Shown: one piece after another, positions 44,150-55,389 of the stretch
How positions within the stretch are numbered: position 1 is the stretch's first letter
Layout of the letters: every line of letters begins with the position of its first letter
Assembly (NCBI GenBank): GCA_011170375.1
Contig: DUEV01000002.1
Location: forward strand, 62,001 to 126,000
Direction: 5' to 3'
DNA length: 64,000 bases
DNA from: Dehalococcoidia bacterium
GTDB taxonomy: Bacteria; Chloroflexota; Dehalococcoidia; Dehalococcoidales; Fen-1064
Program-made: the position numbers and the translations under genes
The notes under the pieces: model-generated
Databases searched by the model: none
Seen by the model: only the letters and a program-made list of their open reading frames with translations
What the model was told of the DNA's origin: nothing

Positions 44150-45271
44150 ATGGCTGACAAGACACTAACACTGCTGGCGGTAGGTGATTTAATCCTCGAC
44201 CAACCAGAGGCAGAGACCTATTTCGAGTTTGTAGCGCCAGTATTAAGGTCGGCGGATGTCGTGGTTGGGCAGGGGGAAGTCGTCTTTACCGACCGTAGTG
44301 TCTGCTCAACGACTGACGTACCTTCTCCACCCTGTGACCCGAAAAACATGAGCGCTCTGCCCTTTGCCGGCTTCAACGTGATTACCCTGGCCGGCAACCA
44401 CATCTGGGACTCAGGTGCGCCGGGAATAGAGGATACGATAGCTGGGCTACGTAATTATGGTATCGCCTATACCGGCGCCGGAATGAACATCGACGAGGCC
44501 AGACAACCAGCCATCATCGAGCGTAATGGAACGACTTTTGGTTTTCTATCTTATAATTGCGTTGGGCCCAAGGAGTCCTGGGCAACCAATAAAAAGGCGG
44601 GGTGTGCCTACGTAAGAATCATCACGCATTACGAACTGGACCACGCCACCCCCGGCGGTCCTCCGACGATATACTCCTTTGCTGAGCCTAAAAGCCTGGA
44701 ATTAATGGTACAGGATATCCAGAAGCTAAGGCCCCTTTGTGATGTTCTGGTTGTCGCTCTGCACAAGGGCATCGGGCATGTACCAAGCAAGCTGGCCATG
44801 TACGAACAACAGGTCTCGTATGCCGCTATCGATGCCGGGGCCGACCTGATTCTGGGACATCATGCTCACATACTCAGGGGAATTGAGCAGTACAAAGGCA
44901 AAACGATATTTCACGGCCTGTGCAATTTTGTTACCGTTACTCTGGCTCTCTCAGCCGATAAGGCCCAGAGCTCCGATGAGTGGGCCATAAGAAGAAAGGA
45001 ATTATTCGGTTTTGCTCCGGACCCTGAGTACCCAACGTATCCCTTTCACCCTGAAGCAAAGCAGACAATTATCGCCAAGTGCACCATAGGTGATGGTAAA
45101 ATATCTCAGACAAGTTACCTTCCCTGTTTTATAAACAAACGGGGACAACCTGAGATACTTAAGAATGACGAAATGGGACAACAGGCCTTCGAATATATGG
45201 ACAAGATAACCCGAGCGGCCGGTCTAAACGCTCGGTATAAATGGGATGGCAATGAAGTATTAGTCCATTAA
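44150..45271 (+). CDS. CapA-like metallophosphoesterase-fold protein 2
   Basis: 373 residues, PGA_cap/CapA family. Motifs: LLAVGDLILDQPEAETYFE, VGQGEVVFTDRS, VITLAGNHIWDSG, VVALHKGIGHVP, GADLILGHHAHILRGIE and KTIFHGLCNFV. No signal sequence or transmembrane segment. It is much closer to the homologue at 54265 than to the one at 40108 (shared tail PDPEYPTYPFHPEAK...IIAKCT). It opens the gene set that continues with the MoaD-like and tungsten-enzyme genes 27 bases downstream. Role unknown. Confidence 0.82.
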   Translation: MADKTLTLLAVGDLILDQPEAETYFEFVAPVLRSADVVVGQGEVVFTDRSVCSTTDVPSPPCDPKNMSALPFAGFNVITLAGNHIWDSGAPGIEDTIAGLRNYGIAYTGAGMNIDEARQPAIIERNGTTFGFLSYNCVGPKESWATNKKAGCAYVRIITHYELDHATPGGPPTIYSFAEPKSLELMVQDIQKLRPLCDVLVVALHKGIGHVPSKLAMYEQQVSYAAIDAGADLILGHHAHILRGIEQYKGKTIFHGLCNFVTVTLALSADKAQSSDEWAIRRKELFGFAPDPEYPTYPFHPEAKQTIIAKCTIGDGKISQTSYLPCFINKRGQPEILKNDEMGQQAFEYMDKITRAAGLNARYKWDGNEVLVH

Positions 45272-51925: not shown

Positions 51926-51963
51926 GACATACTACCTGTAGTCTTAAAAGAGGTGATGGACTG

Positions 51964-53604
51964 ATGAATACGGTCATTAACCCGAGAGGCCAACTCCCTG
52001 CGACGCAACAAACACCTATGGCACTTCGTCTCGATTCTCTGGGTGGAAAAACAATATATATTTTGGACGTACGTTGGCCATATACGCACCAGTTTATCGA
52101 AGAGATGCGCAATGTGCTTTCTGAGAGATATCCCGATACACAGTTCGTAATCAGGGACAAAGCCGGGTCTTATGGCGAAGATGACCCGAAGCTGTGGGCC
52201 GAGATACAGGGACATGGTGATGCTGCAATTGTGGCGGTCGGACACTGAAGCACCTGTGCGCCGGCGGTCGTCGCGCATTGCACAACGCTAGAAAAGCGAG
52301 GAGTTCCTACTGCGCCTGTTGTTACCGAAGTGTTTGCCCCCCTCGCCAAAATGCATGCCAAGCTGGTAGGAAAGCCCCGTCTCCGAATTACCTGTGTCCC
52401 CCATCCAATTTCGCGAGTGCCCTCTCCAGTATGTCGGGAATATATAGAGGGTACTGACCCGATAAGCAGCCGGCTGGTTATCGATGAGATTATCGAAGCA
52501 CTGACAGACACATTATCGGAGGATGATAAGCGTACCGATCTTGAAGAAAGGCCAGTACCGAGGCTGATAGGGCCGGACTCCGAGGAAAACCTGCAACGCT
52601 TCTTCCTTGAAAATGGGATGACTGACTATCTCCCAATAGTGCTTCCTACCGAAGAAAGAGTGGCCGAGATGCTCAAGGGAACCAGCCACAAAGCTGATGA
52701 GTTGGTTGGCGAATTACGCGCCGGGTATGAAGCGGGGAGTTTTACCGTAGAGCAGGTTGCCGCTAATGCGGTAATGGCAGGGGCCAAACCTGAATATATG
52801 CCGGTTATTCTGGCAATGGCAGCATCCGGGGTGGCGGCCATTTCCACCTCCACGCAGTCTTTCGCCAGGATGATAGTGGTCAACGGCCCAATAAGGAACG
52901 AGATTGGGATGAATTCGGGATGCGGTGCGCTGAGTCCTTTCAATCAGGCCAATGCCGTCATTGGCCGGGTGGCTACATTGATGTCCATTAACCTGGGCAG
53001 GGGAGGAGTACCGAACCTGACATACTGGGGTTCTCAGGGTAACACCCTCAACTACAACCATGCTACCTTTGCTGAGAATGAGGAGGGTTTGCCCACCGGT
53101 TGGCAACCTTTCCATGTGCAAAAAGGGTTCAGGCCAGAGGAGAGCGTGGTCAGTTTCTTCCACGGGTACAGTCTCTGGCACTGGAAAAATACCTATGAGA
53201 AAGAAAAGCACGAGGCAATTCTCCATATGGCGAATTGGGTCTTGCCCTCCGGTGGTTACAAGAGCGGATTTGGCCTGTTATTGGACCCAATAGTAGCCGA
53301 AGACCTGGTAAGAGAAGGTTATCCCACCAAGGAATCCCTCAGCCAGTACTGCTACGATAATACCCTGCTGACTCTTGGGGAGTTCTGGCAATATCACCTC
53401 GTGGAAGGTTTCAGTCTTCCAGCAGCCCAGAAGGACATTGAACCGTATGCCTCGTGGTTAAAACAACCGGAGGACACGCTGATAAACAGGTACCGAAGTC
53501 CCGATGAAATCAGCGTACTGGTAGTAGGTGGCAAAACGAACGACTTCTGGCAGGCTGGAGACTGGCGCTACATAAGCAGTTTTTCCATAGATGATTGGAG
53601 GTAG
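51964..53604 (+). CDS. UGSC-family selenoprotein (Sec95-Ser-Thr-Cys98), read through in-frame UGA
   Basis: One 546-residue protein. The frame from ATG 51964 meets TGA at 52246-52248 and stays open without another stop to 53604. Across the TGA the translation reads AAIVAVGH-U-STCAPAVVAHC then TLEKRGVPTAPVVTEVFA, which matches the UGSC family (U/C-G-S-C motif followed by LEK.GIPT..V.TE.F). Sec95 and Cys98 form a redox-like U-x-x-C pair. A long C-terminal domain follows (about 200-546: PTEERVAEMLKGTSHKADELVGEL, NAVMAGAKPEYMPVILA, VVNGPIRNEIGMNSGCGAL) as in full-length members. A GGTGATGG ribosome site precedes the ATG. A SECIS-like hairpin starts 8 bases after the TGA. Function is unknown; a selenium-dependent redox or reductase role is inferred. 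Here the motif is USTC, not UGSC. Confidence 0.88.
52257..52277 (+). promoter_or_regulatory. bacterial SECIS element
   Basis: TGCGC (52257-52261) pairs with GCGCA (52273-52277); inside, one bulged C (52262) and GGC (52263-52265) pairing with GTC (52270-52272, one G-U) leave the apical loop GGTC (52266-52269). The loop begins 17 bases after the UGA at 52246-52248, within the known bacterial range. A bulged base plus a GGUC loop is the arrangement recognised by SelB in the E. coli fdhF element. Confidence 0.75.
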
Positions 53605-53646
53605 AGAGGCCGATAACACGAAGGGAGAATGGAGACGAGAAAGAGC

Positions 53647-54192
53647 ATGACCAACACTCCTGTTAATAACCAAAATCCGGTACCAGGCAGCTTTCACCTC
53701 AGCGCAGTCCCGGTCGGGGTGAGTATAAAGACCACCATCGAACGTGGTGATGCCTATTCGGCACCGGCAATCTATGACGTAGAAATCACTCTTCTGGAAA
53801 TTGTACGTGGGGAAGATGCCTGGGAACGTATCAAGGTACAGGGCGTTTCCACTGAGCCACCGAAGGTCGGTTTCGAGTATATTCTTGCTCGTATTAGATT
53901 CGGGTATTCCCGTCGGGGAAGAGGGTTAGATGACGAGGCTTATAAACTAACGGAAGGCCAGTTTGCTGCTGTCTCTGCAGACGGCCAGACGGAATACATG
54001 ATTCCCACTGTCCTGCAACAGCCACAACTGGTCGATACAATATTTCACTCAGGCGAATCTCGTGAGGGCTGGATTATATTACAGGTGCCAGAGGATGAGA
54101 AGAAACCACTGCTAGTCTATAAACGCGAGCATGTCGAGGGTGTATACGGGATATGGAGGCATGTGTGGTTTCAACTCTATCAGCAGGCATAA
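53647..54192 (+). CDS. hypothetical protein downstream of the selenoprotein
   Basis: 181 residues from ATG 53647 (preceded by GGAGACGAGAAAGAG); ATG 53629 would add six residues. Predicted mostly beta: VGVSIKTTIERGDAYSAPAIYDVEITLLEIVRGEDAWERI, YILARIRFGYSRRG, FAAVSADGQTEYMIPTVLQQP, SGESREGWIILQVPEDEKKPLLVY. This resembles the immunoglobulin-like DUF4352/telokin-like pattern used by secreted proteins, yet there is no signal peptide. Co-directional with the selenoprotein gene, which ends 42 bases before this start. Function unknown. Confidence 0.65.
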   Translation: MTNTPVNNQNPVPGSFHLSAVPVGVSIKTTIERGDAYSAPAIYDVEITLLEIVRGEDAWERIKVQGVSTEPPKVGFEYILARIRFGYSRRGRGLDDEAYKLTEGQFAAVSADGQTEYMIPTVLQQPQLVDTIFHSGESREGWIILQVPEDEKKPLLVYKREHVEGVYGIWRHVWFQLYQQA

Positions 54193-54264: not shown

Positions 54265-55389
54265 ATGAATAATAAGACAGTGACCATGCTGGCTGTCGGC
54301 GATATAATTCTGGGTCCAGACGCCGAATCATTCTTTACGTTAACAATACCGACACTCAAAGAAGGCGATGTGGTGATCGGACAGCTGGAGGTCCCTTATA
54401 CCACAAGGGACGCCAACGCTATGGCCTTGGGTCGCGACCCGAGTACTCTGAACGCATTAGTATCTGCCGGCTTTGATTTGGTCACACTCGCCGGTAATCA
54501 TATCTATGATGCGGGTGATGCCGGGGTAGAGGATACCATTAACTGGCTACGAGGGCATAACATTGCCTTTGTAGGGGCCGGTATGGACTGGACCGAAGCT
54601 ACAAGCCCCACTATTCTTAAGCAGAACGGTACGCGATTTGGTTTCCTGTCTTACAATACCGTCGGGCCGAGGTCTACGTGGGTTGCCAGACGAGAGGCTG
54701 TTGATAAGCCGGGATGTGCCTACATAGATGTCGCTACCTATTATGAACTGGCTCACGCCAACCCCGGAGGCCCACCCGCGGTTTACACCTTCGCCAAGCC
54801 CCAAAGCATAAGAGCTATGCGTGATGATATAAGCAGACTCAGGGAACTCTGCGATGTCCTCGTAGTCTCTTTCCATAAGGGAATCGTCCACACGCCGATA
54901 AAGCTGGTAGATTATGAGCAGGAGATATCTTATGCGGCTATCGACGCCGGGGCTGACCTTATATTGGGACATCATCATCATATACTAAAAGGTATTGAGC
55001 TATACAAAGGCAAAGCAATCTTCCACGGACTGTGTAATTTTGTATGTTGGCTGCCAAGCCTGGCTCCCAAACCTGACCAGGACCCTCAGTCCTGGGCGAG
55101 GAGGAGGAGAGAGCTATTTGGTTTTGAGCCTGACCCCGAGTATCCGACCTACCCTTTTCATCCTGAGGCCAAGCACACTATCATTGCCAAGTGCACCGTA
55201 GATAACGGCAAAATTTCCCGGGTCGGTTATCTGCCCTGCCTGGTCAACAAGCAGGGACAACCTGAGGTAGTCAAGAATGACGAGAGACGGCAGCAGGTAT
55301 TCGACTACATGGATAAAATCACACGAGGTGCAGGTCTAAATGCACGGTTCCGTTGGGAAGGAAACGAAGTGGTTATCGAAGCGCCATGA
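54265..55389 (+). CDS. CapA-like metallophosphoesterase-fold protein 3
   Basis: 374 residues, PGA_cap/CapA family: MLAVGDIILGPDAESFF, VIGQLEVPYTTRD, LVTLAGNHIYDAGDAGVEDT, VVSFHKGIVHTP, GADLILGHHHHILKGIE, KAIFHGLCNFVCWLP. Very similar to the protein at 44150, including the tail NARFRWEGNEVVIE against NARYKWDGNEVLVH. No signal peptide. It sits between the selenoprotein genes and the divergent BcrC/BcrB-like pair. Role unknown; the three copies suggest a shared function with each local enzyme set. Confidence 0.82.
   Translation: MNNKTVTMLAVGDIILGPDAESFFTLTIPTLKEGDVVIGQLEVPYTTRDANAMALGRDPSTLNALVSAGFDLVTLAGNHIYDAGDAGVEDTINWLRGHNIAFVGAGMDWTEATSPTILKQNGTRFGFLSYNTVGPRSTWVARREAVDKPGCAYIDVATYYELAHANPGGPPAVYTFAKPQSIRAMRDDISRLRELCDVLVVSFHKGIVHTPIKLVDYEQEISYAAIDAGADLILGHHHHILKGIELYKGKAIFHGLCNFVCWLPSLAPKPDQDPQSWARRRRELFGFEPDPEYPTYPFHPEAKHTIIAKCTVDNGKISRVGYLPCLVNKQGQPEVVKNDERRQQVFDYMDKITRGAGLNARFRWEGNEVVIEAP

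Follow-up and report, generated by a model that had tools for sequence, protein, structure and literature searches.

A USTC-type UGSC-family selenoprotein encoded across an in-frame UGA in a Dehalococcoidia genome, probably a distant relative of GrdB and PrdB

One reading frame across the UGA

The locus studied here, within a 64,000-nt stretch of the genome of a Dehalococcoidia bacterium (hereafter, the window), poses a simple question: Do two consecutive open reading frames encode two proteins, or a single selenoprotein in which a UGA codon is read as selenocysteine (Sec)? Mechanical ORF listing returned pieces of 94 and 424 amino acids (aa), in line with the original prediction that ordinary gene callers would split this gene. 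The sequence also bore out the claim of a shared frame: from the ATG at 51964 to the TAG at 53602-53604, the frame is the same on either side of the TGA at 52246-52248, from which 27 open codons lead to the first subsequent start, GTG 52330. The features discussed below are collected in Table 1.

Table 1. Features of the locus, in window coordinates.
Feature	Position	Strand	Remarks
USTC-type UGSC-family selenoprotein gene	51964..53604	+	546 aa, Sec = residue 95; UGSC domain, then partner domain
Shine-Dalgarno-like GAGGTGA	51950..51956	+	7 nt upstream of ATG 51964; read in sequence
UGA codon, probable selenocysteine U95 of U-S-T-C motif	52246..52248	+	TGA in L017-L022, TGC in N. galegae; sel genes and tRNA-Sec
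UGSC domain (PF24696, residues 4-154)	51973..52425	+	Crosses UGA; 101.2 bits; Rossmann-like alpha/beta predicted
Putative bacterial SECIS-type hairpin within coding sequence	52256..52278	+	Conservation, fdhF plan, pairing
Partner ("C") domain, residues 187-546	52522..53601 (profile core 52582-53532)	+	No invariant Cys
187-aa neighbour gene	53629..54192	+	Adjoins USTC gene in Dehalococcoidales copies and L019-L021

A reading of the two pieces as separate genes, the first ended by an ordinary UGA and the second starting at GTG 52330, is what the ORF listing delivers, but sequence comparison has already refuted it and we give it practically no credence: A conserved UGSC domain crosses the UGA, the 27 codons beyond it show conservation of the protein and, strongest of all, of synonymous sites, and uninterrupted Cys homologues exist. 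The Pfam UGSC model scored 101.2 bits on the joined protein (gathering score 25), compared with 38.7 bits before the TGA and 42.8 bits after it; one domain thus runs across the TGA, in agreement with the claim that the joined protein is UGSC-like on both sides of the stop. Because the UGSC domain continues for some 60 to 90 residues past the UGA, the fused domain that follows comprises about 355 residues (190-546), not the 450 originally proposed.

A scan of a genome collection yielded 79 related loci. All close relatives (L017-L022, 43 to 95% identical; from Dehalococcoidales, Deltaproteobacteria, and one Gammaproteobacterium) carry TGA at the Sec position together with the U-S-T-C motif, as do seven Chloroflexota USTC homologues for the TGA. 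UGSC genes occurred in 32 of 301 Chloroflexota genomes, and almost every match had exactly one TGA. Natural Cys versions were found as well, as had been asserted for the family: Rumen Clostridia have Cys in place of Sec (motif CSTT), and Neorhizobium galegae plasmids encode a 45%-identical fused homologue (GH-C-STCAPAV) with TGC at the Sec position, which is uninterrupted in strain 7g (L154). The window gene accordingly displays the pattern by which selenoproteins are recognized, an in-frame UGA at a position where homologues have either Sec/UGA or Cys. No homologue ended at the UGA or started after it, setting aside the SM23_61 copy (L021:647-2277), where an apparent frameshift after the UGSC domain splits the gene.

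The existence of Cys versions would also fit a sequencing error or a decaying pseudogene, with TGA standing in for TGC or TGT. An error is excluded because the TGA recurs in independently assembled genomes of other organisms (L017-L022 and the Chloroflexota homologues), spanning several phyla, and the reading as a whole, decay included, is vanishingly improbable given a complete Sec machinery in the genome and purifying selection on the gene to either side of the UGA. The closest pairs have low dN/dS before and after the codon; between the window gene and L017, dN and dS were 0.033 and 0.554 before the UGA and 0.023 and 0.279 in the main part after it. UGA recoding inherently raises one further option, namely that termination at low selenium releases a short product of 94 aa that has a separate function. 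We regard this dual output as highly improbable, since such a product would be missing the catalytic centre along with half the domain, and no homologue stops at the UGA.

Comparison thus confirms, as far as sequence can, that 51964-53604 is one 546-residue selenoprotein gene, as originally predicted from the two ORFs; TGA orthologues, Cys homologues, and sel genes agree on this point. Other relatives were also seen. The conjugative IncP plasmid p2-T1 of Acidovorax sp. T1 carries a UGSC-partner relative with a UGA (L153:7929-9473), close to IS1071 and to aroA, an EPSP synthase gene; the plasmid's gene table has only a 96-aa hypothetical protein at this locus, a case that illustrates how annotation loses UGA-containing genes. 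A haloarchaeal Cys form (CGSC) on a Natrinema plasmid (L152:7971-9666) consists of a UGSC gene immediately followed by a partner gene. In rumen Lachnospiraceae (L024:11250-13001, L032, and L047), fused relatives are without Sec or Cys and usually without the resolving Cys, and the domain may there have a non-redox use. A phage search found no homologues.

A conserved hairpin past the UGA and the selenium machinery

If the UGA is recoded, a bacterial SECIS hairpin is expected just past it. A bulged hairpin with a GGUC loop does begin at the eighth base beyond the UGA, as had been described, with a stem (52256-52261/52273-52278), a bulged C (52262), three further base pairs, and a GGUC apical loop (52266-52269) at +17. 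An Rfam scan of the UGA site gave no match to a SECIS family, and the stability of the hairpin is ordinary (z = 0.27), so that its folding energy is no evidence for a SECIS; thermodynamic folding as the sole evidence was dropped as uninformative, and comparison was used instead.

Across five orthologues, the 12 codons past the UGA showed 79% synonymous-codon identity, against a gene mean of 50% (SD 8). Only 5 of 534 windows along the gene reached that level, and each of them overlaps the UGA site. In the USTC clade, every TGA member places GGUC 17 nt past the UGA on a 3-bp upper stem, and most have the bulged base. Over 12 sequences, 94.9% of the cells were paired versus 14 to 64% when the strands were slid, and two pairs had changed on both sides; a shuffle control was weaker, with 26 to 27 of 500 shuffles scoring as high. 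By these measures, the hairpin is conserved in sequence, position, and pairing. It shares its plan with the SECIS of E. coli fdhF (taken from the genome record), i.e., a stem, a bulged base, 3 bp, and a GGUC loop, which lies 17 nt from the UGA in the window and 18 nt in fdhF, whereas the stem sequences differ and the bulge is a C in the window and a U in fdhF.

The genome that contains the window (2.28 Mb, 17 contigs, 95% complete) was searched for the machinery that a Sec-encoding gene needs. All of selA, selB, selD, and tRNA-Sec (anticodon TCA) were present, clustered within about 6.5 kb at 12 to 18.5 kb on contig C8. Among genomes with a TGA homologue, selA and/or selB exceeded the cut-off in 16 of 16, compared with one of seven rumen genomes with Cys or a lost residue (one-sided Fisher test worked by hand, about 7e-5; incomplete assemblies blur both sides). 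Taken together, the comparisons leave us almost certain that SelB and tRNA-Sec insert Sec at the UGA, under the direction of the hairpin whose GGUC loop lies 17 nt farther on.

Two further UGA-containing genes were seen in the same genome. Its selD (L097, C8:12129-13046) itself has an in-frame TGA, and SelD looks like a selenoprotein; a second UGSC-partner fusion (L010, C15:52580-53080, minus strand) has a TGA and the motif U-G-T-F, without the resolving Cys.

A USTC clade and kinship to GrdB and PrdB

The UGSC family, which first came from metagenomic selenoproteome surveys, is already known and uncharacterized, and the window gene is a distinct variant of it. The protein scored below the cut-off of the NCBIfam equivalog NF041046 (77.1 bits; cut-off 125), which the two-gene UGSC protein L050 passes with 135.6 bits. 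Its motif is U-S-T-C in place of the literal U-G-S-C, with UxxC kept; this involves two changes, Gly to Ser and Ser to Thr, where the original prediction had described a single Thr for Gly at the third position. In a tree of 106 UGSC domains, 14 USTC rows and six rumen Cys rows formed one side of a branch with 100/100 support, and USTC therefore marks a deep subfamily common to several phyla. The rumen Cys branch is long, and its exact place within the clade is weakly supported (93/65). Judged by this tree, USTC characterizes a deep sister clade within which Cys is found in some rumen Clostridia.

An AlphaFold2 model of the window protein, built on a 60-row alignment (pLDDT 89, pTM 0.87), predicts a Rossmann-like alpha/beta domain for the first ~185 residues, with Sec between a strand (87-93) and a helix (98-111). 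The best structural matches were Rossmann-like, cobalamin-binding, and receiver-type domains (Z 8 to 10.5). The top VIA match for the whole model, chain H of an MCR activation complex (Z 10.5), stood barely above the other Rossmann-like rows and was left uninterpreted. Sequence searches of the PDB with the protein, with both alignments, and with GrdB gave no match.

Profile comparison pointed to a more specific relationship. The iterated UGSC profile recovered GrdB proteins at their Sec motif, and hhalign of 104 UGSC domains against seven GrdB sequences gave 95.5% probability (E = 1.4e-8, 91 columns) with Sec aligned on Sec, the property on which we base the assignment to a GrdB/PrdB superfamily. 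Control comparisons were nil (reversed GrdB, 0.5%; GrdE, 2.2%; nothing for the partner domain against either). For a typical UGSC protein, the next NCBIfam matches were PrdB, GrdH, GrdB, and GrdF, weak (E = 0.02 to 0.13) and all at the motif. The USTC clade alone matched GrdB more weakly (55%, E = 1.2e-4), and the GrdB family PF07355 matched neither the window protein among its Pfam hits nor anything in its genome at E ≤ 1. From profile and model together, the Sec-Ser-Thr-Cys centre very probably belongs to a Rossmann-like domain distantly related to the Sec domain of GrdB/PrdB, with a strand before the centre and a helix after it; common ancestry of the two Sec domains is likely. PrdB/GrdB-like selenoproteins with the motifs U-P-L-C, U-P-N-C, or U-A-L-C were also seen at L137, L145, L147, and L148, with UGSC in the same genomes.

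An earlier account, the Global Ocean Sampling study of 2008 (PMC2398784), suggests in its treatment of UGSC a thioredoxin-like fold, and the family could be understood as a thioredoxin-like redox protein. The UxxC motif and the thioredoxin-like domains and thioredoxin-reductase-like genes nearby (see below) would suit that account. Against it stand the predicted fold, which looks Rossmann-like instead, the kinship to GrdB/PrdB, and a partner domain conserved as strongly (N, R, E, and W) as a catalytic or substrate-binding domain would be. We consider a thioredoxin-like redox protein the less likely reading, although the fold search itself leaves room for a thioredoxin-like fold.

The partner domain, redox neighbours, and a proposed reaction

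Among 108 UGSC cases, a set partly drawn with the window protein as query, the partner domain was fused downstream in 34, encoded by the gene directly upstream in 53, and encoded directly downstream in 15, with few exceptions. When loci were selected solely with the UGSC model, 27 of 29 had it, and one of the two without it (L114) is 0.3 kb away from where its stretch ends. The partner domain thus accompanies UGSC almost everywhere, fused or adjacent, a near-obligate pairing that is new here. In two Poribacteria loci (L065 and L066), the partner domain was present and no UGSC gene was found within about 6 kb.

The partner domain (~190-546) had no relative in Pfam, NCBIfam, or PDB sequences. 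Modelled alone (pLDDT 82.6), it gave no convincing match to a solved structure; a kinship to class I fumarases, suggested by the top Foldseek rows (E = 8e-4), was rejected at a TM score of 0.21 and an rmsd of 17; the VIA-align Z did not exceed 5.1, and profile comparison with E. coli FumA showed no similarity. Its invariant or near-invariant residues are D, P, N, R, E, W, and G. Glycine and proline reductase complexes have a pyruvoyl partner with a cleaved Cys (GrdE or PrdA); the partner domain showed no similarity to GrdE and has no invariant Cys, so that it is not a pyruvoyl precursor like GrdE, and a GrdE-like role was dropped. Considering the near-obligate pairing, we think that the domain most likely holds the substrate, with a fair margin of doubt.

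Redox proteins recur around these genes. About 20 of 80 separate partner proteins bear an N-terminal thioredoxin-like domain with CPTC, and thioredoxin-reductase-like flavoprotein genes adjoin the UGSC-type gene in L022, L157 (the same gene as L125), N. galegae, and L104, with such a gene one gene away in Variovorax; the two that were translated contain CASC. This recurrence of thioredoxin-like domains and thioredoxin-reductase-like genes beside UGSC-type genes is new here. No thioredoxin or thioredoxin-reductase gene was found adjoining the window copy. Apart from the partner domain, neighbours differ by lineage, and a conserved-neighbour search over 610 neighbours returned only generic recurring genes (catabolic and transport). 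In N. galegae VafX2, the gene stands after malonyl-CoA decarboxylase and malonyl-CoA synthase genes; the window gene has an acyl-CoA-ligase-like gene on one side and CapA-like, HgdB-like, and CoA-transferase genes on the other. These two neighbourhoods suggest carboxylic-acid catabolism, nothing more definite. Homologues of the 187-aa neighbour matched DUF4352 weakly, under its cut-off, and two CapA/PGA_cap paralogues in the window (44150-45268 and 54265-55389) flank the aldehyde ferredoxin oxidoreductase and UGSC genes.

The model that best accommodates these data is a dithiol/NAD(P)H-driven reductase in which Sec would attack a substrate held by the partner domain. SelB and tRNA-Sec would decode the UGA, guided by the hairpin, and the fused partner domain would hold the substrate; the selenolate would then attack the substrate at an electrophilic centre, in the manner of the glycine and proline reductases, the Cys three residues after Sec would resolve the intermediate as a selenenylsulfide, and its re-reduction would fall to a thioredoxin or a thioredoxin-reductase-like protein at the expense of NAD(P)H. 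A dithiol-recycled selenium reductase is supported by the redox partners, by what PMC10298544 describes of glycine and proline reductase chemistry, and by the C-F cleaving GrdB relative in PMC10838667. For the reaction itself, reductive cleavage of a C-heteroatom bond beside a carboxylate would be the leading candidate, a tentative one. As a whole, the combination of a recoded UGA, a GrdB/PrdB-related Sec domain, a substrate-holding partner, and dithiol recycling is the best explanation and, in our estimate, rather probable.

A broader proposal is more speculative. UGSC and its partner might form a widespread, unrecognized second branch of GrdB/PrdB-type selenium reductases, found also in bacteria of aerobic habitats, in which a Rossmann-like domain with Sec or Cys attacks an alpha-substituted carboxylate held by a new-fold partner, with dedicated thioredoxin/thioredoxin-reductase-like recycling and no pyruvoyl subunit. 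The GrdB/PrdB link, the partner domain, and the redox partners provide a concrete enzyme hypothesis for the UGSC family. Since the cultured rhizobium N. galegae naturally has this fused protein with Cys, its function could be tested without selenium machinery.

Set against known systems, what is new here is the GrdB/PrdB relationship, the near-obligate partner domain, the USTC clade, and the redox partners. With the UGSC family (PF24696/NF041046), the window protein shares the domain across the Sec site, the UxxC centre, and Sec itself, which nearly all Chloroflexota members have; it differs from the family proper in its USTC motif, its place in a separate 100/100 clade with the rumen Cys forms, and its fused partner domain. 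A UGSC/Unknown_1 fusion was already noted in Figure S1A of PMC2398784, in which UGSC is joined to a conserved domain of unknown function, most likely the same one; it was noted there as one example, whereas here the partner is fused or adjacent at nearly every UGSC locus, with gene order either way. With GrdB and PrdB, the Sec subunits of glycine and D-proline reductase (PF07355 and TIGR04483), Sec-x-Thr-Cys aligns Sec on Sec, as does the downstream pattern (E)IE..G(I/V)P...T...PHP, whereas the window protein is remote from them, unmatched by PF07355, and has neither a GrdE/PrdA-like pyruvoyl partner nor the N-terminal half of GrdB.
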